NCBI GenBank assembly: GCA_947628155.1
Contig: CANQYQ010000009.1
Span: 1 to 33,360 of the forward strand
Reading direction: 5' to 3'
DNA from: an uncultured Clostridia bacterium
GTDB taxonomy: Bacteria; Bacillota; Clostridia; UBA1381
Length of the DNA: 33,360 nt
Shown: piece by piece, positions 3,717 through 33,360 of the stretch
Numbering within the stretch: the first letter of the stretch is position 1
How the letters are laid out: the number at the start of each line of letters is the position of its first letter
Position numbers and translations under genes: made by a program
Notes under the pieces: model-generated
Database searches by the model: none
Seen by the model: the letters and a program-made list of their open reading frames with translations, nothing else
What the model was told of the DNA's origin: nothing

Positions 3717-4610
3717 TTATACATCATACGTTTTGTCTATGGTCTTCAGTTCTCGAAAAGTATCTATCTCAACGATATCGCTTTCAAAGCACTCGCGCGG
3801 CTCGACAGCATAGTGTTCTTTTTTATATACGAGCGGGACTTGCTCCCAATATCTTTCTTTCCCGCCGGGGGACGCATAAACATCAGCTATATCCTGAGAC
3901 AGTTTGTGCCCATCCGCTTCATTCCAATATGATATCCCTGCCATCTGCCAGCAGTCCGTACCGCCCACCTTTTCCTCGGCGATGATCCCGTCCTTGACTG
4001 TAAAGCACCAGTCGTCGGTCCTGTCTTTTTTTATTCCTAGAAAATTGGAGGCGTAGTGATATTTTTTTATTATCTCTGGGTTTGAAAGCAAAAGGTCGGC
4101 CTCAAAAACATATGCGTTTGAAAGCATATACCGCGCCACCAGCGCGGAGCTAATGTTGTTCGCCTCATTGTACGCCGGATTTTCTAGAAATCTTATCATC
4201 GGGTACTTGTAGAGGAGCTGATCGAACTGCTCCGCAAGATAACCGCGCACGATGTAGATTTCATTTATTCCGACATCGAGACACGCATCTATCAGACGGT
4301 CAATGATCCTGACGCCGTGAACGCGCACGAGAGGTTTCGGCGTATTGAATGTTATCGGCACCATTCGCGTACCGAATCCGGCAGCGATGAATACCGCGCG
4401 TTTGACTCGGTACGTCTCCAAGGCGTCAAGCCCGGAATTTGTTATTTCGCTGTTCCTTATGTATCCGAGGTCGGCAAGCTCTTTGGAAATTTTATTTACG
4501 GTGCCGAGAGAATAGCCCGTCTTTTCTTCAAGCTGACGTTGAGTAAGAGATTTTTTAAAAAAAGCGAGTTCTGTGAGTACATCGAACTGTTTACGAGTTA
4601 ACTTCTGCAT
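3717..4610 (-). CDS. Winged-helix domain fused to a LicC-like nucleotidyltransferase
   Basis: 297 aa. Residues 1-65 form a MarR-like winged helix (LTRKQFDVLTELA, LTQRQLEEKTGYSLGTVNKI, a wing around LGYIRNSEIT). From residue 70 there is a sugar-phosphate/choline-phosphate nucleotidyltransferase domain with VFIAAGFGTRM, the PITFNTPKPLV lysine motif and the acidic VFEADLLL. ATG at 4610 is chosen because AAAGGA lies upstream and the longer in-frame extension looks non-conserved. First gene of the left module, preceded by a 295-bp gap with a candidate promoter and a palindrome. LicC activates phosphocholine with CTP; no choline kinase or transporter is visible here, so the substrate is open. The HTH may autoregulate the operon (inference). 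Confidence 0.88.
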   Translation of the reverse strand: MQKLTRKQFDVLTELAFFKKSLTQRQLEEKTGYSLGTVNKISKELADLGYIRNSEITNSGLDALETYRVKRAVFIAAGFGTRMVPITFNTPKPLVRVHGVRIIDRLIDACLDVGINEIYIVRGYLAEQFDQLLYKYPMIRFLENPAYNEANNISSALVARYMLSNAYVFEADLLLSNPEIIKKYHYASNFLGIKKDRTDDWCFTVKDGIIAEEKVGGTDCWQMAGISYWNEADGHKLSQDIADVYASPGGKERYWEQVPLVYKKEHYAVEPRECFESDIVEIDTFRELKTIDKTYDV

Positions 4611-4678
4611 TGCTGCTTTCCTTTCTTTTTGGGCTTTGATGTTCAAACAAGCCCGCCTTTGTTTCAAATCAGCGGTTA

Positions 4679-4905: not shown

Positions 4906-5757
4906 TCATTCTTTCCAATAAGCTTCAACTCCGTGTGAAAAGCGATCTTCGACCGGAGGAAGCTTGTTGTAATCTCCGTAAACTTGACGAAGAAGTCTGT
5001 CGTATCCGGACGGTACACAGAAATTTCTTTTTTCAAACATCATTTGAATCGGATCGTAGTCTGCTTTTTCTACTACTGCTTTATATACGGCATCATGATT
5101 GACCATTCCGACATATTTCGAATCATCATATGCATATTTGTCAAAAGCATGATCCATTTTTTTGTGAATATCACTGATTGATATCGGTGCCGTTATAGCT
5201 AAAATAATCTTTTTTAAGAAGGTTTTCAGCTTTGTCTTTCCGGCGCCGCTTTCTGTCATTTTTATTACCAATAGATTTCTCCAAAGATTCAATCTAATAC
5301 ACATCAAATTGCGCAAAAGCGTATTATTAGGTAATCCATCTATCGGAAAGACATCAATATATACTCCTATTGTGTAGCATGGCTTTAAATATTCTTCAAA
5401 AACTATGGTCCGATTATCTATAATTTTCATAAAATTGTAATTGGTTTTTTTGTTATCATATGAAAATGTTTCGTAATATGCGCCTATATCATTTTCTTTT
5501 GTGAGTTGTTTAAATCTCTCATAATCCGGTCTTGGCATCGCAACATCTATATCATCATCCCACGGAATGAAGCCTTTGTGTCTGACCGCTCCCAAAAGTG
5601 TGCCGGAATCCAAGAAATATCTCAAATTATTGTTTTCACAGAAATCAGCAAACGAACAAAGTATGTTGTATTCGATTTCTTTAATCTCATCAATAGCGAT
5701 TTTGCTTTTTTTATCATAATTTACACTTTTATCGCCATAATTGTTTAATTTAGCCAT
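4906..5757 (-). CDS. LicD-family phosphotransferase
   Basis: 283 aa from the ATG preceded by AGAGGA; one TTG codon lies just upstream in frame. It carries the LicD signature: YFLDSGTLLGAVRHKG followed by FIPWDDDIDVAMPR and PDYERF, near residues 45-80. The aspartate cluster is the nucleotidyltransferase-like active site. LicD proteins transfer phosphocholine or other phospho-substituents from CDP-activated donors to sugars. The gene is clearly more AT-rich than the left module, which suggests a separate origin. No licA/licB gene is visible, so the transferred group may instead come from the nucleotidyltransferases encoded just downstream (inference). Confidence 0.9.
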   Translation of the reverse strand: MAKLNNYGDKSVNYDKKSKIAIDEIKEIEYNILCSFADFCENNNLRYFLDSGTLLGAVRHKGFIPWDDDIDVAMPRPDYERFKQLTKENDIGAYYETFSYDNKKTNYNFMKIIDNRTIVFEEYLKPCYTIGVYIDVFPIDGLPNNTLLRNLMCIRLNLWRNLLVIKMTESGAGKTKLKTFLKKIILAITAPISISDIHKKMDHAFDKYAYDDSKYVGMVNHDAVYKAVVEKADYDPIQMMFEKRNFCVPSGYDRLLRQVYGDYNKLPPVEDRFSHGVEAYWKE

Positions 5758-5768
5758 CAAAATCCTCT

Positions 5769-6749: not shown

Positions 6750-7385
6750 CTAAAACTCTGTAACCTGTTTAAGCAGTTCATCTACAGACATCTTTGAAGC
6801 AATTAAGTTGGCTATGCGTTCCTCATCTGCAAGCTTTTCTTTCACTTTTTCAATTACTTCCGTTTCAATTTCCTTTGGTATTACACATACAGCTTCGTTA
6901 TCGCAATAAATCAAATCTTCGGGTCTAATCTCTACCTGATCTATGCGTATCGGTACGTCTGTCTGCTGAACGCGTCCTCTTCCCTTGATATCTATCGGTG
7001 AATACCCCTTTGCCAAAATGGGCAATGTTACCTCTAATGAATGAGTGTAATTTGTGTCTCTGGTCAATCCATCGATTACCACGCCCTCTATGCACATCTG
7101 TGTAGACAGCTTGGTCATCAGTTCACCAAAGTACGCAAATTCCTTGCTTCCTTTTACAATAAGGATGTCTCCCTTTTTGCACTGTCCAAGAAATGACAAT
7201 CCCATGCGAATATTTTCGTCGTCGGTATCTTTTGTTTCAATAAGAACAGTACGCGCTCTACCCATAAAGTTTACCGTACTTTTGTTTTTCAAAAAGCCTG
7301 TAATGATCTGGTGCTTCCAACCCATACGGTCCATAACATCAGAAAACAGACCGCTGCAAAGTTTCTCAATATCAAGCTCAGACAT
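6750..7385 (-). CDS. RraA-family protein (HMG/CHA-aldolase-like)
   Basis: 211 aa. The family core is visible: GRARTVL, KKGDILIVKG, FGELMTKLS, and GVVIDGLTRD with the Asp/Arg-Asp that carry metal and substrate in HMG/CHA pyruvate aldolases, then GRGRVQQTDVPI. It starts at a TAATG overlap with the preceding DAHP-synthase-like gene and has its own GGAGG, so it is translationally linked to it. Family members cleave or decarboxylate 2-oxo acids with a pyruvyl moiety, or bind RNase E. Inside an operon for a pyruvate-derived 3-deoxy-ulosonate, a role on the 2-keto-3-deoxy acid (retro-aldol, salvage or editing) is plausible but unproven. Confidence 0.85.
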   Translation of the reverse strand: MSELDIEKLCSGLFSDVMDRMGWKHQIITGFLKNKSTVNFMGRARTVLIETKDTDDENIRMGLSFLGQCKKGDILIVKGSKEFAYFGELMTKLSTQMCIEGVVIDGLTRDTNYTHSLEVTLPILAKGYSPIDIKGRGRVQQTDVPIRIDQVEIRPEDLIYCDNEAVCVIPKEIETEVIEKVKEKLADEERIANLIASKMSVDELLKQVTEF

Positions 7386-8197
7386 TATTTTACCTCCTTG
7401 CCAATAACATTCCCAATATTTTTCATTGTCTCATACAAATCCTTGAATTGGTCAAGATTCAGCGCCTGATCCTTGTCGCACAGGGCCTGTTCGGGATTGT
7501 GATGAACCTCAATTAAAATTCCTTCACAGCCAAATGCCACGCAGGCCTTCGCAATATCGGGCACACCGAAACTGTAACCCATCGAGTGGCTAGGGTCAAG
7601 AATTAACGGAGCGCGGCTTTCATTTTTTATCACAGCAGCTCCGCATAAATCCAATGTAAATCTGCTGGAGGTTTCAAAAGTGCGTATTCCCCTCTCGCAC
7701 AACATAAGATTACGGTTGCCCTCGACCAAAACATAATCGGCCATTTTAAAAAGCTCATCAACCGTTGCGCCGAAATGACGTTTCAACAAAACGGGCTTTG
7801 AGGCTCTTCCCGCAGCACGAAGCAGAGAATGATCATACATTGCTTTTGCGCCAATCTGTATGATATCCGTAACTTGCTCAACTGCCGAAAAATTCGTGGC
7901 GTCAGATGTCTCTGTGATGACTTTCATGCCATATGTATTTTTCACTTCTTCAAGCCACTTAAGTCCTTGTTCGTGTGCTCCTTGAAAAGCATACGGATTT
8001 GTTCTCGGCTTAAAAGCCCCCGCGCGGAATATCTTAATTCCCATTTCTGCCAGCTTTTCGGCTGTGTACATGATTTGATCCCTACTCTCAACAGCGCACG
8101 GACCCGCCATGATACGACAGGTATTCGGATTAAACAGCTCCTCTCCACCGATAGATATATTTCTGTTCAGCTCATTGCCTTTTGATATAAGTTCCAT
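7385..8197 (-). CDS. DAHP-synthase-like (type I-beta) 3-deoxy-ulosonate-phosphate synthase
   Basis: 270 aa TIM barrel of the NeuB-unrelated DAHPS/KDO8PS family. It has GPCAVES (metal-ligand Cys34), FRAGAFKPRTNPYAFQG (63-KPRT-66), LLKRHFGAT, LCERGIRTFE, LDPSHSMGY and GILIEVHHNP. The KPRT motif, rather than the KANRSS of KDO-8-phosphate synthase, and the ERGIRTFE pattern place it closer to DAHP synthases than to KdsA. Automated pipelines may nevertheless call it KdsA. There is no N- or C-terminal ACT or chorismate-mutase extension, so no feedback control by aromatic amino acids is evident. It overlaps the KdsB-like gene by 26 nt and has a GGAGGATC ribosome site inside it. It should condense PEP with an aldose phosphate; which one is open. 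Confidence 0.87.
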   Translation of the reverse strand: MELISKGNELNRNISIGGEELFNPNTCRIMAGPCAVESRDQIMYTAEKLAEMGIKIFRAGAFKPRTNPYAFQGAHEQGLKWLEEVKNTYGMKVITETSDATNFSAVEQVTDIIQIGAKAMYDHSLLRAAGRASKPVLLKRHFGATVDELFKMADYVLVEGNRNLMLCERGIRTFETSSRFTLDLCGAAVIKNESRAPLILDPSHSMGYSFGVPDIAKACVAFGCEGILIEVHHNPEQALCDKDQALNLDQFKDLYETMKNIGNVIGKEVK

Positions 8198-8924
8198 TTT
8201 GATCCTCCATTATTTTCTTCACACGTACTAAGTCTTTCGGCGTATCTACCGATATTGTTGACGTGTTTCGCTTATACGCTTTTATTTTTATTCCGTTTTC
8301 AAGCATTCTCATAAAATCATGATCTTCAGCCTTTTCCAGCTCCCCCTTTGACAGCAATGAATATTCCAGAAGAATATCTCTCGGATAAGCATATACGCCT
8401 ACCGACTTACAATATTCAAAATCAATGCCTGCCTTTGGATACGGAATAGGGCTTCTTGATGCAAATAAAACGTTATCTAATCTATCCGTAACGATTTTGA
8501 TGATAGTTCCGTTGACAGCGTCTACGGGGTTCTTTATCGGCGTTCTGAATGTTCTCACGCAATCAGCTTTTGATTCTTTTTTAATTCTGATGACCATTTC
8601 CTCGATAAGGTCTGTCTCAATCAGCGGTTCATCGCCCTGCACCAGCAAATAGTAATCAGCCTGAATCTTTTCCGCCACTTCCGCGATCCTATCAACGCCT
8701 GTCGGATGATTTTCAGATGTCATGACAACAGGGATAGCATAGCTTTCGCACACGCTTTCTATGATTTGACTGTCCGTAGCCACATATACCTCTTGAATTC
8801 CGTTTGCTGATTTCACTTTCTGGTATACCCACCAAATCATAGGCTTGCCAAGCAAGTCTGCCAGAGGCTTACCAGGAAAACGCGAGCTTTTATAACGCGC
8901 AGGGATGGTGCATACAATCTTCAT
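8172..8924 (-). CDS. KdsB-like CMP-3-deoxy-ulosonate cytidylyltransferase
   Basis: 250 aa from the ATG at 8924, preceded by GGGGAGGT. The motifs are those of CMP-KDO synthetase: IPARYKSSRFPGKPL, IYVATD-like EVYVATDS, HPTGVDRIAEVA, YLLVQGDEPLIE, and FASRSPIPYPK, with the late DTPKDLVRVK. The enzyme transfers CMP from CTP to the anomeric hydroxyl of a 3-deoxy-2-ulosonic acid. Its ATG overlaps the TGA of the NeuA-like gene (ATGA, 8921-8924). Combined with the DAHP-synthase-like and KdsC-like genes it completes a synthesise-dephosphorylate-activate route. Confidence 0.9.
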   Translation of the reverse strand: MKIVCTIPARYKSSRFPGKPLADLLGKPMIWWVYQKVKSANGIQEVYVATDSQIIESVCESYAIPVVMTSENHPTGVDRIAEVAEKIQADYYLLVQGDEPLIETDLIEEMVIRIKKESKADCVRTFRTPIKNPVDAVNGTIIKIVTDRLDNVLFASRSPIPYPKAGIDFEYCKSVGVYAYPRDILLEYSLLSKGELEKAEDHDFMRMLENGIKIKAYKRNTSTISVDTPKDLVRVKKIMEDQNGTYIKRQ

Positions 8925-9676
8925 GCGGCGCACCTCCCCGCACATTCCTTTATTTTTACGCTTCTATAATGTACCCCCCCCGCGTGGGAAATTATATTGC
9001 TGGATTTGTAAATCGAGTTTTCGTCAAGCCCTTTTTCAACAGCATCAGCCAGCAAAAAATCATCGGGATAATTTATATCAATCTGCTCAATTTTGTTTAC
9101 GGCTATCATTTTATACTTTTCTCCAATCCTAAGTCCCTCCTTCAAATGGGCTTCTCTGCTAATCACATAAAACCCCATCGTCTCAAATACAGTTTCCTTT
9201 AATGTAAAGCTGTTGGGGATGTGCTTCAGATCATATCTCGGCTCTTCCTTATCGGGATCCCACAAATAATAATGCTCTTTCCCGACGCAGACGATAGAAT
9301 CGTATTCTCCGCTTCTAACGGCATCAATTCCTTCCATCAGCGTATTCTTTGACAAAAACGGCATTGGCGGAAGGTGCTGGATATATATATCAGCGTTCGG
9401 AAAATTAGATGTCTCCCATCTGAAAAACGCATTCCCATCCGTGCCGTTTGTGGCTAACTTATCAGGTCTCTTTAGCGTATTGAAGCCATGTTTATTCGCC
9501 AGTTCCAATATCTCAGCATCATCCGAGTCTACGACAATATCCTCTTTCGGAAGCGCCTGATGCAGGTTATAGCACGCCCTTAAAAACATGGGCAGTCCGC
9601 CAATCTCCTTTAAATTTTTTCTCGGAACTCTTGAGGAGCCTCCTCGTGCAGGTACAAACCCTATAATTTTTTGCAT
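8921..9676 (-). CDS. NeuA-like acylneuraminate cytidylyltransferase family protein with a G8 tract near its 3' end
   Basis: 251 aa, preceded by a near-perfect AGGAGGT six bases before the ATG. The N-terminus FVPARGGSSRVPRKNLKEI is the CTP-binding loop of CMP-sialate synthetases, and DIVVDSDDAEIL and QIDINYPDDFLLAD follow in the expected places. The recognised domain ends near residue 228. The rest is a tail encoded across a run of eight Gs (8974-8981). With eight Gs the frame reads on for about 17 codons past the run to the KdsB-like start (ATGA). With seven or nine it stops after a few residues. Having both this and a KdsB-like enzyme in one operon implies two activated acids, or a specialised non-CMP role for one of them. 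Confidence 0.88.
   Translation of the reverse strand: MQKIIGFVPARGGSSRVPRKNLKEIGGLPMFLRACYNLHQALPKEDIVVDSDDAEILELANKHGFNTLKRPDKLATNGTDGNAFFRWETSNFPNADIYIQHLPPMPFLSKNTLMEGIDAVRSGEYDSIVCVGKEHYYLWDPDKEEPRYDLKHIPNSFTLKETVFETMGFYVISREAHLKEGLRIGEKYKMIAVNKIEQIDINYPDDFLLADAVEKGLDENSIYKSSNIISHAGGVHYRSVKIKECAGRCAA
8974..8981 (-). repeat. G8 homopolymer tract in the NeuA-like gene
   Basis: Eight Cs on the plus strand, hence eight Gs in the coding strand. The tail frame is open to the next gene at eight Gs; at nine Gs it ends ...GGGTL-stop and at seven ...GGYIIEA-stop. Candidate slipped-strand mispairing site. Confidence 0.75.
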
Positions 9677-9710: not shown

Positions 9711-10709
9711 TCATATTCCTATTCGCAGATCGATTGCCCCAAGCAACTTCCCATTTTCAACCACGGGCACCACATCTATCCCTTTTCTCATAATCAAAAG
9801 AGCAGCGTAAATATCCTCAATATTTTTGTTGCTGTCAACAGTAAAGGGTGATGCGTTCATGATGTCTTTAGCATTCTTTTCAAATATGCTTTGGCTGAAC
9901 TGAATATACCCTCGGCGAATGTCGCCGTCTGAAATGATTCCCTGCAAGGTCTCTCCCTCCGCAACCATCACTACGCCCAAACGATAGTGGTTCATCGTGT
10001 TTATAACTTCCATGAAAGAAGCTTGTCCTGTTACGATAGGAAGAAAATTGACCTTAATCATGATCCTTGTTACATTCACGCCCTGCTCGTTCATATATTT
10101 CAGACTATATGCGTTCATTCCTAACTGTTCCATATCTTTGCAAAGATATGATCCTGAAACCACCATCTCCACCCCAAGCTTTTCCATCTTTTTGCTGATG
10201 ATGTTATTTATGCCGCCATCAGCAAAAAGACTCAGCGAAGGATATTTATCATGGATCAATTCGATTCTGGCAAAATTGGAATCGTCAAATTTTGCGCCTG
10301 ATATTCCCGGCTCGCTGCACATGAACAAAACCTGTGAAATATGATCTATATACTTGTCTATAACATCAAGGCTTGTCCTGCTTGTGACCGCTATTCCGAA
10401 ATCGCCCTTAAATCTCTCGGCTATTCTCAGAATATCGTCCTTATTTTTTAAATTTTCAAACTGCACATTTAAATACCTGACATTCGCCTGATTTAAAATA
10501 TCTATGTACTCGTTCGGCACAGACTCAAAAATCAGGTGAACGTCAAGCGGCGGATATGAATCGTCAAATCTCAGAATATCCGCCACCGCAAAGTCCTTTT
10601 CCTCCTGAAAAATATCTATATGAAGGCAGTCAATCTTTGCAAATTTCAAAATTTCGGCATATCCGAAATAATCCGCTTTCACGGCTAAAATACTTCCCGA
10701 TACTCTCAT
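9711..10709 (-). CDS. Ribulose-phosphate 3-epimerase-like TIM barrel fused to a CBS-domain pair
   Basis: 332 aa with a strong AAGGAGG before the ATG. Residues 1-205 follow ribulose-5-phosphate 3-epimerase: GSILAVKADYF at the start, LHIDIF (His30, Asp32), PLDVHLIF (His58), a PGISGAKF loop and FADGGI (Asp164). The four metal/catalytic residues of that family are therefore retained. Residues 215-332 form two CBS repeats, with GIISDGDIRRGY, which is very like the CBS pair of KdsD/GutQ arabinose-5-phosphate isomerases. I know of no standard family with this order. By position it replaces the SIS-CBS isomerase expected to feed a KDO-type pathway. It may supply the sugar phosphate for the DAHP-synthase-like enzyme (inference). 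CBS domains suggest control by a nucleotide or CMP-sugar. Confidence 0.87.
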   Translation of the reverse strand: MRVSGSILAVKADYFGYAEILKFAKIDCLHIDIFQEEKDFAVADILRFDDSYPPLDVHLIFESVPNEYIDILNQANVRYLNVQFENLKNKDDILRIAERFKGDFGIAVTSRTSLDVIDKYIDHISQVLFMCSEPGISGAKFDDSNFARIELIHDKYPSLSLFADGGINNIISKKMEKLGVEMVVSGSYLCKDMEQLGMNAYSLKYMNEQGVNVTRIMIKVNFLPIVTGQASFMEVINTMNHYRLGVVMVAEGETLQGIISDGDIRRGYIQFSQSIFEKNAKDIMNASPFTVDSNKNIEDIYAALLIMRKGIDVVPVVENGKLLGAIDLRIGI

Positions 10710-10833: not shown

Positions 10834-12282
10834 TTATCTCTCCTTCATCTTCTTAAATTTATCTATAATTTGCTTACGTTTTATAATGCAAACTATCATC
10901 CCGACCGCAATCAACGAATACCTTATTATCGGACGATCGTATATCACCATCATGCCAAATGCGGCGATGACAAAAATAGCCGACATTGCAAATATAACCT
11001 TTTCGTCATAAACTTTGTCGCCATCAATGTGCTTTTTGCAGACCTTTCTCATAAATGCATAGTGTGATACGCTGAAAAGAATATAGCAGAAAAGCGTGGT
11101 GTATCCGGCGGCATAATAGCTGAAGATTTGCATAAATATATAATTAAGTATAATATTTGCGATTGCCCCGATCACCGACGCAGTGGTGATGAATTTGTTT
11201 TCCTCGAAGAAAAATTCAATATTGCCGAACATCGAGTAAAGGAACGTGAAATACGAACTGAGGCTTATTACCGGCACGAGATATATCGCCTCGTAGTAAT
11301 CCTCCGTCGCGACGATCTTAATAAGCTCAGGAGCAACCGCCGAAAACGCAAGGCACATTCCACCGACCATAAGAACAAGGAAGTTTACTATCGGCTTGAG
11401 AGCTTTGTAATCGCGCTTGCTGAGTTTATTGTAAGTATAAGGAATAATAGCGCTATTGATGGAACCGGTGACGATATTCATAACAAGCGAGATATTGTAT
11501 GTAAAGCTGTAGATTCCCGCCTCAGCATCGCCTATGTAGCGGCGGATCATCACGCGGTCGGCTTGCCCCAAAACCATGCCCGAAAGATAGTGGGGTATGA
11601 GCGGTAGATTGAAAGACAACGCATATTGCCAAAACTCATGATTGTAAAAGCATTTGCCTTTAATGTAGTTATACGTCATGAACGCTGCGCCGAAGCCGAC
11701 CTGAACTATCACTCCGCTGTATATTACCGCTTTCAAGCGCTGCTCCTGTGGGAACATAAGCGCGCTAACGATTGGCACCAGTGTATTTGAAACGGCCAGC
11801 AACGCCGTGAACACAAGCAGATTTACATAGCGATACTCATACCTCTGACGAGCAGTCCAAAGAAGGTAGCTTTGCGTCAGAAGAATTTGCAGGAACATCA
11901 GCGCAACAAGGTCAGATCCCATGCCCATGAGATCGTTCCAAAAGCCAATGAACATCAGGTACATCGCGAAACATATCACAGTCGCAGTCGCAGATAGGCT
12001 CTGCGATGAGGAAGTATAGCTGTCCCGCCTGTCGGGAAACTTGAACATCGCATTGTTAAAGACCCCGGCGCTGAGGTTAAGCGTGGCAAATATGCTTATA
12101 AGCGACGTCCACGACGCGAAAACGCTGTAGACTCCGTACTGCTCGGTCGTGAGAAGGCGCAACAAAAACGGCATCGCAAGGAATTTTATACCGCTTTGGA
12201 CCGCTTGGCATACTGTGAACCAAAAGGCAGCTTTAGCTTGGAGCGGTAGAGACGAATATTTATTTATCATTTTTCGGAGCAT
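10834..12282 (-). CDS. wzx: Wzx-type polysaccharide flippase (MATE/PST family)
   Basis: About 482 aa from an ATG at 12282, which has GGAGGG about 12 nt upstream; a second ATG at 12270 is possible and the longer frame to 12354 is not credible. The protein is almost wholly hydrophobic, with 12-14 predicted membrane segments. It starts with the family pattern AAFWFTVCQAVQSGIKFLAMPFLLRLLTTEQYGVYS (shortened here to its meaning: a first helix followed by the L-x-x-x-x-YG motif). It should flip the lipid-linked repeat unit across the membrane. The start overlaps the end of the preceding gene stump (12260), which is consistent with recombination at this junction. Confidence 0.93.
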   Translation of the reverse strand: MLRKMINKYSSLPLQAKAAFWFTVCQAVQSGIKFLAMPFLLRLLTTEQYGVYSVFASWTSLISIFATLNLSAGVFNNAMFKFPDRRDSYTSSSQSLSATATVICFAMYLMFIGFWNDLMGMGSDLVALMFLQILLTQSYLLWTARQRYEYRYVNLLVFTALLAVSNTLVPIVSALMFPQEQRLKAVIYSGVIVQVGFGAAFMTYNYIKGKCFYNHEFWQYALSFNLPLIPHYLSGMVLGQADRVMIRRYIGDAEAGIYSFTYNISLVMNIVTGSINSAIIPYTYNKLSKRDYKALKPIVNFLVLMVGGMCLAFSAVAPELIKIVATEDYYEAIYLVPVISLSSYFTFLYSMFGNIEFFFEENKFITTASVIGAIANIILNYIFMQIFSYYAAGYTTLFCYILFSVSHYAFMRKVCKKHIDGDKVYDEKVIFAMSAIFVIAAFGMMVIYDRPIIRYSLIAVGMIVCIIKRKQIIDKFKKMKER

Positions 12283-12600
12283 TTTTTTCGTTGCCCTCCG
12301 ACGGAAAAAGGCTGTCAAAGTCCTCCCTTTCAAAAACTTCGAGCTTGCCTCCACGCGTGGCGTTGTAAATCTTTATGCCGTGGGAGTCGGCGTAATCTTT
12401 GGCGGCTTGGTAGGCTAATATCATTATGTCCCCGGCTTTTGAATCAGATTTCATCCCATAATATGTGAAATGCTGTTTAGGTCCGCTGTAATCACAATCG
12501 CAACTCAAAAGATATATCTCTTTAAAACCCATATATACAGCTATTTGAATAAGAGAGATTGTCACGGTACTGGACATATAGCACCTTTTGTCTTCACTGT
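12260..12600 (-). pseudogene. 3' stump of a second DUF115/GT42-like transferase
   Basis: About 113 codons resembling only the C-terminal half of the neighbouring DUF115-like protein. MSSTVTISLIQIAVYMGFKE then IYLLSCDCDY match its GFSTV...YMGFSEVYLLGCE, and DSHGIKIYNATRGGKLEVF matches SSHGTKIYNCTPFTLIDCI. The N-terminal half with the GNGPS motif is missing. The upstream end merges into the last codons of the intact gene, and base composition changes at the junction. It is probably the older transferase gene, truncated when the AT-rich gene was acquired. It might still be translated, but should not be an active enzyme. Confidence 0.7.
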
Positions 12601-13523
12601 ATTTGTGAATTGCGTTGTTTATGAAAAACATCATCAATATCTCTGCGTTCAATACAGTCAATTAGAGTAAAAGGAGTACAATTATAAATTTTAGTTCCAT
12701 GGCTTGAACAATATAAATCTAAATTTTCATAATCCAACATTGCTCTATAAAATGCACGAAGTTCTTGACTAAATGGAAGTGTTTCTCTCAATGATTTCAT
12801 GCGTTTCTTTTCGTTCTCACTTATTTCATACGCATATGTATCATTGAGTTCAAGATGCATTCTGACCTTTATTGATGTTAAAATGCTTGTAGTCTCACAT
12901 CCTAACAAATACACTTCAGAAAAACCCATATAGTTAGCTAAAAAAATTGCATATTGAATAACCGTACTGAACCCAGGTATCATTTTGCAATAATTATTTT
13001 TACGCTTCATAAAATATTCTAATCCATATGAATTAAAAAAATAATTAGCATCAACAAAAGTGGCTAATCCAGAACTAATAATATACTGTCTAAATTTAAT
13101 AGGAAAGAAGCACATGGGGGTATTATCTTTTGTATTAACATTTTTCATAACGTTAAATAATTCAATATTTTCAGGTTTAGTTAAATCAAGATTGAAAAAC
13201 TGAGTGTCAACCCAAAAATGTATATTTGTTTTTAATTTTGCAAAATTGGGGTTTCTAGCTATTTGATTAACTGTAAAAACAAACTCGTTTTCAAAATTTG
13301 AAAAATCTAATTCCTGAATGGACGGACCATTGCCAAAAATAAAGCAACGTTCATTTTTGTGAGTATTTTTTAATTTTTTGTTTTGATCCATATAGCGATA
13401 ATTTGAGCAATTTTCAATCCATAATTTTAGCATAGCTGCATACTCAACTTGTTTTTCCATAAATATTTTAATTTTTGTAGTTAGTTTCATATCTTTCAGC
13501 ACATCCTTTATATTATTAATCAT
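12594..13523 (-). CDS. DUF115 / GT42-sialyltransferase-like protein, putative CMP-ulosonate transferase
   Basis: 309 aa and strikingly AT-rich compared with its neighbours. After an N-terminal helical stretch, CFIFGNGPSIQELDF (about residue 60) carries the GNGPS motif shared by DUF115 (MptE-like/Maf) proteins and GT42 sialyltransferases. VNQIARNP follows at the place of the GT42 CNQF element. PGFSTVIQYAIFLANYMGF then SEVYLLGCE matches the SGV...ALGYKEIYLSG region. Maf and GT42 enzymes transfer acids from CMP donors. With a CMP-ulosonate operon just downstream, a role as the acid-sugar transferase is the best inference, although generic annotation would be hypothetical or DUF115. Low GC suggests recent lateral acquisition. 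Confidence 0.78.
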   Translation of the reverse strand: MINNIKDVLKDMKLTTKIKIFMEKQVEYAAMLKLWIENCSNYRYMDQNKKLKNTHKNERCFIFGNGPSIQELDFSNFENEFVFTVNQIARNPNFAKLKTNIHFWVDTQFFNLDLTKPENIELFNVMKNVNTKDNTPMCFFPIKFRQYIISSGLATFVDANYFFNSYGLEYFMKRKNNYCKMIPGFSTVIQYAIFLANYMGFSEVYLLGCETTSILTSIKVRMHLELNDTYAYEISENEKKRMKSLRETLPFSQELRAFYRAMLDYENLDLYCSSHGTKIYNCTPFTLIDCIERRDIDDVFHKQRNSQIQ

Positions 13524-30944: not shown

Positions 30945-33360
30945 CTATCTTCCGAACACGACGCCGATATCGGCGAGCCGTTTTACCTTGTCGCTCTCTA
31001 GCACGCCGCGGCGGAAACGGCGTTCCTGCGAACGCATCCACTCACCGAGCGGATAGCCGTCGCCGGTCACATATGTCTGCGGTATCGGGATAGAGCCGCC
31101 GCGCGTGCAGTATGTCTGCGCGTAATCGTAGCCGCGGTTCCACTTGTCCGTGTTCGTGTTCCAAACCATGCCGATCTGACGTAAAAGCTGGGCTCTTTCC
31201 TCCGACAGTTTTCCGTCCTTGTACGCGCGCCTCTGCGATAATATCCAGTTGTTCAGCGTAAAGCCGTCCTCACAGACATATTTTTTCGGTACGTTCAAAT
31301 CACCATACAGTTTGAAATATGCTTTCGCGTGCTCATACCCCATCTGCCACTTGTCGCGCAAAACCTGCCAACGCATGCCGAGTTTATCTAGAAGCCCTCG
31401 CTGTTCATCAGTCAGAGCATTTGTCCTGTACTTCGTCCGCTGATTCGCGATCCATACGCCGAGCCTGTACCCGTCCTCGGACACATACTGACCGCTCGCG
31501 TCAAGGTCGCCGTTTTTGTCAAAATACGACTTCGCGTGTTCGTATCCGCGCTGCCATTGCTTCTCTGATACATCCCATGACATGCCGATCGATTCAAGAC
31601 GTTTGATTTGCGTCGGTTTCAGTTTGCCCGCCGCGTACTTGCCGCGCTGCGATGCTACCCATGTACCGAGCGCAAATCCGTCGTCGGTCTTGTATTCTGC
31701 CGGAACATCGAGCGCGCCGTGCTCGTCATAGTATGCCTGCGCGTACTCGAACGCTGCGTCCCATTTGCTTGCGGATCGCTGCCAGCTCATGCCTATTTCG
31801 TCGAGCAAGCGTATCTGTTCATCTGTGATGTGAGCGCCCTTTTTCTTGTTTTGCCGCTGCCCGGAGATCCACACGCCAAGCTTTACACCGTCCGGCGTCG
31901 TATAGTTCACGTTGACGTTGAGGTCGCCGTGTTCTTCGTAATATCTCTTTGCAAGCGCATAATACTGCATCCAGTTGCGTGCCTGTACGGACTCCCACTG
32001 CGCGCCGATCGATTCGAGCTTTTGCCGACGTTCATCTGTCAGCGTGCCGTTGCTGTATTGATTGCGAACGCCGCGATACCATGCTCCGAGGCGTGTCCCG
32101 TCGTCGGTCTTGTATGTCGCGGGAATGTCGAGATCACCGTGCTGTGCATAATACTCTTTCGCAAGCTCAAACTTCCGCTCCCATGAATCCTCGAACTCCC
32201 ACGTCATGCCGAGTGCGGACAGCTTCTCAAACTGCTCATCCGTGAGCTTGCCCTCGCGCTGCTTTTGCCGCTGGCGCACGAGCCAGTCCGACAGCTTTCC
32301 GGGCATTTCGGGGGATGTCTCCAAATTTCCGTGTTCGTTGTGATACGACTGCGCAAGAGCGAAGCCCTCATTCCACTGACGTTCGTGTATCGTCCGCCAG
32401 TTCATGCCGATTTCGTTCAGCTTATCTATGCGGGCCTGCGAGATGCCGCTCTTGTTCCTGTAATTTATCCTCTGCGTGACGAGCCACTGCCCTAACTTCG
32501 CGCCGTTTTCGGTAACGTAGCTCTGCGTTGGGAGAAGATCGCCGTTTTCCTCGTAATACGCTTTCGCCTCGGCGTACATAAAATCCCATGACGCTGACAG
32601 CGTGCCCTCGAGCTCGTCGAACAGAAGGCGGCAGTCCTCGACCGCGTCGATGACGCGGAAGCGGTCGTTGACGATGTAGCGCGATTCGCCGAGAAACTGA
32701 TAATACTGAACGACCTCCTGCATCTCGTCCTCGATAGAGTCGATGCTGTAAAGTCCCGCAATGTTGTTGACGATGTCGAATATGACCGGCTCCTTAGACT
32801 TGCTCGCCGAGAGCGCGCGGCCAATCTGCTGCTTATATATAATGGGGGAAATCGTCGGGCGAAGCAGGATCACGCCGCTGACGTTCTCGACGTGTATGCC
32901 CTCGTTGAGCGCGTCGATGCAGTAAAGCAGGCGCAGATGAGTGTCGTCATTGTCCGCTTTGAAATCCGCGAACGATTTGTTCGCACCGGGGTTGTCGGAA
33001 TATACCGAATAAACGTGCGGATGCTCGTCAACCCTGCGGAACCACTCGCCGGTTTTCTCCATCATCTCATCCATGTGCTCTTTGTTGGCACAGAAGATGA
33101 TGTATTTGCCTGTCCGGTCGGTCATATGCTTGTCGAAGATAACGTCAAGACCGTCCGCCATTTCGAGCGCACGGCGCAGCGCTTCGAGATACTGCTCCGC
33201 TTTGTCACGCTGTTTCTTGCCGCGCAGTCTCCTCGCGCGCTGCGCAAATCGCTCCAAGTCTTTTTTGTAGGAGTAAACTGTCGTGACGTACTTCGGTGCG
33301 GCGAGAATGCCGCGGACGATGGCCTCGCCGAGCGTCATCTCGGAGGCGACGTTGCCGTCG
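30945..33360 (-). CDS. DEAD/DEAH helicase C-terminal domain with eight helicase-associated (HA) repeats, 5' end cut by window edge
   Basis: At least 804 codons, open at the right edge; the ATG at 33338 is internal because DGNVASE precedes it in frame. Residues up to about 230 are the second RecA-like domain of a superfamily 2 helicase: YIIFCANKEHMDEM, LYCIDALNEGIHVENVSGVI and motif VI IYKQQIGRALSA. Motifs I-III lie outside the window. Eight repeats of about 66 residues follow, each with a W/A-x-YY-x-x-x-GDL half, a GxxLGxW half and IGMxW. They resemble PF03457 HA domains, which are linked to DNA or RNA binding. Probably not part of the polysaccharide pathway but a flanking gene. Confidence 0.92.
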   Translation of the reverse strand, partial: DGNVASEMTLGEAIVRGILAAPKYVTTVYSYKKDLERFAQRARRLRGKKQRDKAEQYLEALRRALEMADGLDVIFDKHMTDRTGKYIIFCANKEHMDEMMEKTGEWFRRVDEHPHVYSVYSDNPGANKSFADFKADNDDTHLRLLYCIDALNEGIHVENVSGVILLRPTISPIIYKQQIGRALSASKSKEPVIFDIVNNIAGLYSIDSIEDEMQEVVQYYQFLGESRYIVNDRFRVIDAVEDCRLLFDELEGTLSASWDFMYAEAKAYYEENGDLLPTQSYVTENGAKLGQWLVTQRINYRNKSGISQARIDKLNEIGMNWRTIHERQWNEGFALAQSYHNEHGNLETSPEMPGKLSDWLVRQRQKQREGKLTDEQFEKLSALGMTWEFEDSWERKFELAKEYYAQHGDLDIPATYKTDDGTRLGAWYRGVRNQYSNGTLTDERRQKLESIGAQWESVQARNWMQYYALAKRYYEEHGDLNVNVNYTTPDGVKLGVWISGQRQNKKKGAHITDEQIRLLDEIGMSWQRSASKWDAAFEYAQAYYDEHGALDVPAEYKTDDGFALGTWVASQRGKYAAGKLKPTQIKRLESIGMSWDVSEKQWQRGYEHAKSYFDKNGDLDASGQYVSEDGYRLGVWIANQRTKYRTNALTDEQRGLLDKLGMRWQVLRDKWQMGYEHAKAYFKLYGDLNVPKKYVCEDGFTLNNWILSQRRAYKDGKLSEERAQLLRQIGMVWNTNTDKWNRGYDYAQTYCTRGGSIPIPQTYVTGDGYPLGEWMRSQERRFRRGVLESDKVKRLADIGVVFGR

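Follow-up and report, generated by a model that had tools for sequence, protein, structure and literature searches.

We found that in the window, a stretch of 33,360 nucleotides from an uncultured Clostridia bacterium, a ribulose-5-phosphate 3-epimerase (RPE) barrel is fused to a pair of CBS domains. The RPE-CBS protein is a real, recurring architecture that belongs to a conserved cassette. Our literature search found no description of it, nor of any RPE with CBS and CMP-Kdo. As far as the sequences allow us to judge, the fusion rather likely catalyses, under feedback control, the opening step of a pathway dedicated to an activated 3-deoxy-2-ulosonic acid that is not Kdo. The likely product of the gene set is an acidic sugar, so far unrecognised, that would be placed on the cell surface or the flagellum.

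The fusion gene and its surroundings

The initial annotation of the window described the gene as a fusion of RPE with a CBS pair, without giving the strand. Using Pfam and a structure model, we confirmed the fusion, which lies on the minus strand (Table 1). The ATG is preceded by a Shine-Dalgarno-like aaggaggg. The Pfam model Ribul_P_3_epim (PF00834) matches residues 21–189 with 71 bits (cut-off 21.1), and the CBS model matches two stretches with 50.2 bits. The score with the NCBIfam RPE equivalog TIGR01163 (64.2 bits) is below the cut-off of 212.6. The KpsF HMM aligns with the fusion only at HMM positions 156–267, which is the CBS part, and neither Pfam nor NCBIfam finds a SIS domain in the protein. 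The AlphaFold model has a mean pLDDT of 79 and a pTM of 0.58, and its linker is ill-defined. RPE structures match the modelled barrel with a VIA Z of 22–23.5 over about 195 residues, and AlsE (3ct7) matches it with a Z of 21.5. The C-terminal part of the model matches the CBS pair of E. coli YrbH/KdsD (3fna) with a Z of 17.5 and the CBS pairs of the arabinose-5-phosphate isomerases 4o9k and 3k2v with a Z of about 17; 4o9k matches by sequence too. Thus, the closest solved relatives of the CBS pair include those of KdsD, in agreement with the KdsD-like character assigned to it at first. The ligand of 4o9k is presumably CMP-Kdo; a literature search on this ligand found nothing. The barrel residues His30, Asp32, His58 and Asp164 are present and had been numbered correctly. 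Since all catalytic residues are kept, a catalytically dead barrel was ruled out. An assembly artefact was also ruled out, because five other, independent contigs, which come from two phyla and include a viral record, show the architecture too.

As had been proposed, the fusion indeed opens a CMP-ulosonate operon: it is the first of six cassette genes, followed by the genes of a PseF-like cytidylyltransferase, KdsB, a DAHP synthase (DAHPS)-like enzyme, an RraA-like protein and KdsC, with intergenic gaps of 34, −25, −26, −1 and 24 bases. The annotation missed the RraA-like gene, which is no less conserved in the system. A gene for a Wzx-type flippase (10834–12354) and one for an MptE-like/DUF115 protein lie upstream of the cassette. 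The latter protein is a candidate CMP-ulosonate transferase, tied to the cassette by proximity only. We ruled out a NeuB-type nonulosonate pathway, since the window cassette has no NeuB and the DAHPS-like protein barely reaches the threshold of PF03102.

Table 1. Features of the cassette and of an upstream gene (window coordinates).
Feature	Position	Strand	Evidence and remarks
RPE-CBS-CBS fusion, 332 aa	9711..10709	-	first cassette gene; Pfam/NCBIfam, structure model, PDB fold match, 6 relatives
RPE-like TIM barrel, residues 1–192, with His30, Asp32, His58, Asp164	10134..10709	-	
CBS pair, residues 212–328, with GIISDGDIRR	9726..10076	-	Pfam, KpsF HMM positions 156–267, 4o9k, 3fna, 3k2v
PseF-like CMP-ulosonate cytidylyltransferase, 251 aa	8921..9676	-	CTP_transf_3; PseF model below cut-off
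KdsB-type cytidylyltransferase, 257 aa, accessory	8172..8945	-	PRK13368 273 bits, cut-off 255
DAHP-synthase-like class I-beta synthase, 270 aa, KPRTN motif	7385..8197	-	TIGR01361 298.8 bits, cut-off 267.75
RraA-like pyruvate-aldolase-fold protein, 211 aa, GLTRD motif	6750..7385	-	PF03737 88.8 bits
KdsC-type HAD phosphatase, 155 aa	6258..6725	-	TIGR01670 134 bits, cut-off 107
MptE-like/DUF115 protein, GNGPSIQELDF motif	12594..13523	-	PF01973 39.3 bits

Elsewhere in the organism's own genome there are a housekeeping RPE (C187, L077) and a housekeeping DAHPS (C6, 395 bits). The presence of this RPE ruled out a housekeeping gene displaced into the operon. With the KpsF HMM, no SIS-CBS isomerase (KdsD) was detected in the own genome, whose assembly is 86% complete; the standard isomerase that would have spoken against the annotation's reading was thus not found. 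The HMM gave two matches, one of them the fusion, and the alignments start at position 156 or 174, that is, at the CBS end.

Other parts of the window also deserve mention. Directly after the intact MptE-like/DUF115 gene, a C-terminal piece of a second such protein (12260–12661, minus strand) looks like a duplicate that has decayed or suffered a frameshift. At 3717–4667 (minus strand), a MarR-type helix-turn-helix is fused to a nucleotidyltransferase domain close to a LicD gene (4906–5760); this region is a lic-like phosphoryl-decoration cluster. In an ORF of 797 aa (30945–33338, minus strand), a unit of about 70 aa is repeated many times and resembles helicase-associated domains.

Distribution and gene neighbours

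The search for the domain order RPE-CBS-CBS and its neighbours, advised in the annotation, gave five further fusions, all beside RraA-like and DAHPS-like genes, and one homologue without CBS. Together with the window, this makes seven homologues in genomes and viral contigs. About six fusions are known in all, from MAGs, other genomes or virus contigs. Among 398 genomes of the phylum, two fusions belong to other classes (G492, locus L035, and G603, locus L036). A scan of genome contigs recovered the G492 fusion again (L042) and gave a sister Ruminiclostridium MAG (L041, 84%) with the identical six-gene order. At about 11770–12535 of L041, kdsB is split between two frames, while the other cassette genes are intact; this is either an assembly error or a real loss. 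Another fusion is in the viral contig L070, and one that is 45% identical to that of the window is in the Fidelibacterota genome G1066 (L089). The homologue without CBS is in the viral contig L045. The fusion was absent from 60 near relatives, and no further fusions were found in the classes of G603 and G492. In plasmids, a tblastn search for the fusion matched nothing but housekeeping RPEs, and these only in part, and no match in phage records covered more than 80% of the fusion. RraA and the cytidylyltransferase found only distant general family members in phages and plasmids, and single-protein scans of viral contigs gave no match beyond the query.

RraA-like and DAHPS-like genes adjoin the RPE homologue in all seven loci. 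RPE-CBS and the RraA subfamily occur in the same three of the 398 phylum genomes, the own one included, and among the 391 genomes of the class both are confined to the own genome. The cassettes of L070 and L089, which hold RPE-CBS, DAHPS and a cytidylyltransferase, were found by the RraA query alone. Therefore, their RPE-CBS genes are an independent confirmation of the association.

Two forms of the cassette can be told apart. In the CMP version (window, L041, L070 and L089), a PseF-like cytidylyltransferase is added to the trio; the enzymes of the window and L070 are 49% identical. The bacterial loci of this version (window, L041 and L089) also carry the KdsC phosphatase. The kdsB gene is absent from the cassettes of L070 and L089. 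A small ORF directly upstream of the L070 fusion has no Pfam match. The L089 cassette comes after flagellar genes (FliW by Pfam; flgK, flgL and others putative) and contains a cytidylyltransferase-KdsC fusion (L089:10044–11222). Two large viral contigs (160 and 118 kb) each encode a cytidylyltransferase joined to RraA in a single protein (L073:7992–9293 and L074:7992–9293), and a GT29 sialyltransferase-like gene precedes it; no RPE relative was found in these records. Both kinds of fusion tie the joined activities together.

In the ThDP version (L035, L036 and L045), the trio is accompanied by an acetolactate-synthase-type (YerE-like) ThDP enzyme and by putative CDP-dideoxyhexose genes, and there is no cytidylyltransferase. 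The viral record L045:1–16501 (IMG/VR) holds a large sugar-biosynthesis block with an RfbH-like aminotransferase-fold protein, epimerases and the ThDP enzyme, which suggests a branched deoxy sugar. According to the available text of PMC12247030, ErwE and other YerE-like enzymes take 4-hydroxy-2-oxo acids as donor substrates and accept long hydroxy-2-oxo acids, and MMAR_2332 from caryophyllose synthesis has a similar donor preference. That text mentions no RPE-RraA-DAHPS trio in these pathways, whereas our sister clusters combine the trio with the ThDP enzyme and the CDP-dideoxyhexose genes; the window cassette differs in having no ThDP enzyme and activating its product via CMP. Given this donor preference, the simplest common product of the trio would be a 3-deoxy-2-ulosonate, which is a hydroxylated 2-oxo acid.

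Active sites and alternative readings

His30, Asp32, His58 and Asp164 are invariant in all seven family members and occur without exception in the 54 housekeeping RPEs used for comparison. Six members (L089 was not in this alignment) were aligned with these RPEs; they keep Ser6 and Met130 as well as the four residues. The MDG.FV loop, the methionine of HLM and the glutamine of GGQ are gone in all six; the RPE set was gathered with a pattern that includes H.D[VI]MDG.FV, so this motif is conserved in it by construction. L089 retains a partial LDG. In the tree, the RPE-CBS family forms a single clade (99/96) with a CMP branch and a ThDP branch, both part of a long-branched topology. Thus, the family shares with RPE (PF00834, TIGR01163) the fold, the SxL, PG.xG and GG phosphate motifs, and the two Asp acid/base residues and His ligands typical of epimerases that work by 1,1-proton transfer. 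It differs from RPE in the missing MDG.FVPN loop, HLM methionine and GGQ glutamine, and it is a clade of its own, fused to a CBS pair and with dedicated gene neighbours. Because of the lost residues, the substrate of the barrel has probably changed and is probably not ribulose-5-phosphate. The lost residues may lie round the C1 side of the substrate.

It could be supposed that the fusion is an ordinary ribulose-5-phosphate 3-epimerase under CBS control, duplicated to push pentose phosphates to erythrose-4-phosphate for a dedicated DAHPS, the sugar being CMP-3-deoxy-D-arabino-heptulosonate. The intact catalytic residues agree with this, as do the RPEs at the top of the matches by sequence and fold. 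We consider it quite unlikely, since the housekeeping RPE (L077) is already present, residues found in 54 of 54 housekeeping RPEs are lost in the six aligned members, the equivalog score (64 bits against 212.6) is too low and no transketolase was seen in the cassettes. The lid changes permit another substrate, and AlsE, which acts on allulose-6-phosphate, is among the matching RPE-fold enzymes (3ct7, Z 21.5). The substrate of the RPE domain could therefore be a hexulose- or heptulose-phosphate, a larger ketose phosphate, or else a tetrulose phosphate from which an L-sugar would arise; another enzyme, perhaps the always present RraA, would then make the aldose. However, the KPRT motif of the synthase favours a tetrose phosphate and no sugar isomerase was recognised in the cassettes; we find this reading very improbable.

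The partner enzymes bear on the product. The window synthase scores 298.8 bits with TIGR01361 (DAHPS) and 120 bits with the KDO8P synthase model TIGR01362 (cut-off 314). The motif KPRT is a mark of enzymes that use tetrose-4-phosphates, and KANRS is a mark of Kdo8P synthases. The module synthases have KPRT (KPRTN in the window), not KANRS. In the tree with 21 housekeeping DAHPSs, they form a single clade (100/100). The sequence GARNxQN, invariant in these 21 enzymes, reads GAKAMYD in the window, and its R, N and Q positions are lost in all seven module synthases. Class I-beta DAHPSs can be promiscuous, which weakens the case for erythrose- or threose-4-phosphate as substrate. The RraA proteins of the window, of the cassettes in other classes and of the viral contig L045 are 53–58% identical, and they are 37–40% identical to that of L070. 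The RraA proteins keep the RD pair, a feature of pyruvate aldolases of the RraA fold. Taken together, KPRT in place of KANRS, the loss of GARNxQN and the loss of the RPE invariants make ordinary Kdo an unlikely product.

The annotation, largely borne out, placed the fusion "in place of" KdsD. The Kdo pathway that this implies proved too narrow. Like KdsD/KpsF/GutQ (SIS-CBS-CBS, TIGR00393), the fusion has a C-terminal CBS pair of the same type and enters before a PEP-condensing synthase, a phosphatase and a cytidylyltransferase. However, catalysis falls to an RPE barrel with different chemistry where KdsD has SIS, and the synthase is of DAHPS type. The cassette likewise follows the logic of the CMP-Kdo pathway (KdsD-KdsA-KdsC-KdsB) and has relatives of KdsC and, in the window, KdsB; it differs in a DAHPS-like enzyme for KdsA, a PseF-like cytidylyltransferase and the extra RraA-like protein. 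For a true replacement of KdsD, the RPE domain would have to make arabinose-5-phosphate (e.g., by C2 epimerisation of ribose-5-phosphate), and the DAHPS-like enzyme would have to accept it, with CMP-Kdo as the product. The KdsB- and KdsC-type neighbours in the window exceed the curated cut-offs, the CBS pair is of KdsD type and no SIS-CBS was detected in the own genome, all of which fits. We nevertheless regard this as unlikely: the synthase is KPRT, scoring 298 bits as DAHPS against 120 as KDO8PS, kdsB is missing from L070 and L089 and frame-broken in L041, the same epimerase occurs in clusters with a ThDP carboligase and no cytidylyltransferase, RraA is left unexplained, and the lineage is Clostridia-like, in which no lipid A need for Kdo is expected. 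Against our non-Kdo reading, the similarity of the window proteins to KdsB and KdsC points to a C8 acid.

Proposed pathway and its meaning

We propose that the RPE domain would invert the carbon beside the carbonyl of a small sugar phosphate, which agrees with the first prediction, a regulated entry step that delivers an unusual sugar phosphate. The preferred substrate would be D-erythrose-4-phosphate, converted to D-threose-4-phosphate via the same two Asp residues, because erythrose-4-phosphate is ribulose-5-phosphate minus the C1 hydroxymethyl group, and the same chemistry applies. The DAHPS-like enzyme would condense the product with PEP to a 3-deoxyheptulosonate-7-phosphate, by preference the lyxo isomer; our literature search found nothing on threose-4-phosphate with DAHP synthase. 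KdsC would then remove the phosphate. The RraA-like protein, with its pyruvate-enolate active site, would take the free 2-oxo acid as its substrate and perhaps epimerise it at C4 through a retro-aldol/aldol reaction; this role is a guess and the weakest step of the pathway. The PseF-like enzyme would yield a CMP-sugar for a surface or flagellar transferase. The CBS pair, placed as in KdsD, may sense the CMP-sugar or a nucleotide and would throttle the first step. In the ThDP clusters, the same 2-oxo acid would pass to the YerE-like enzyme and become a branched sugar.

The conversion of erythrose-4-phosphate to threose-4-phosphate, giving CMP-3-deoxy-heptulosonate, is our best specific guess, drawn from the chemistry and the KPRT motif. 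In its complete form, it would be a pathway not previously described, in bacteria and viruses, in which an RPE-fold aldose-phosphate 2-epimerase under CBS feedback and a DAHPS-derived synthase lead to CMP-3-deoxy-D-lyxo-heptulosonate; we put this forward tentatively, as a rather improbable proposal.

Thus, a gut bacterium has led to a compact, transferable gene set that is spread across Bacillota, Fidelibacterota and viruses. At the step where KdsD stands in the pathway logic, it has the KdsD-type CBS pair joined to another catalytic fold. The gene set predicts a surface or flagellar ulosonic acid distinct from Kdo and from nonulosonates, and its enzymes are candidates for supplying long hydroxy-2-oxo acids to YerE-like ThDP enzymes in the synthesis of long branched sugars.
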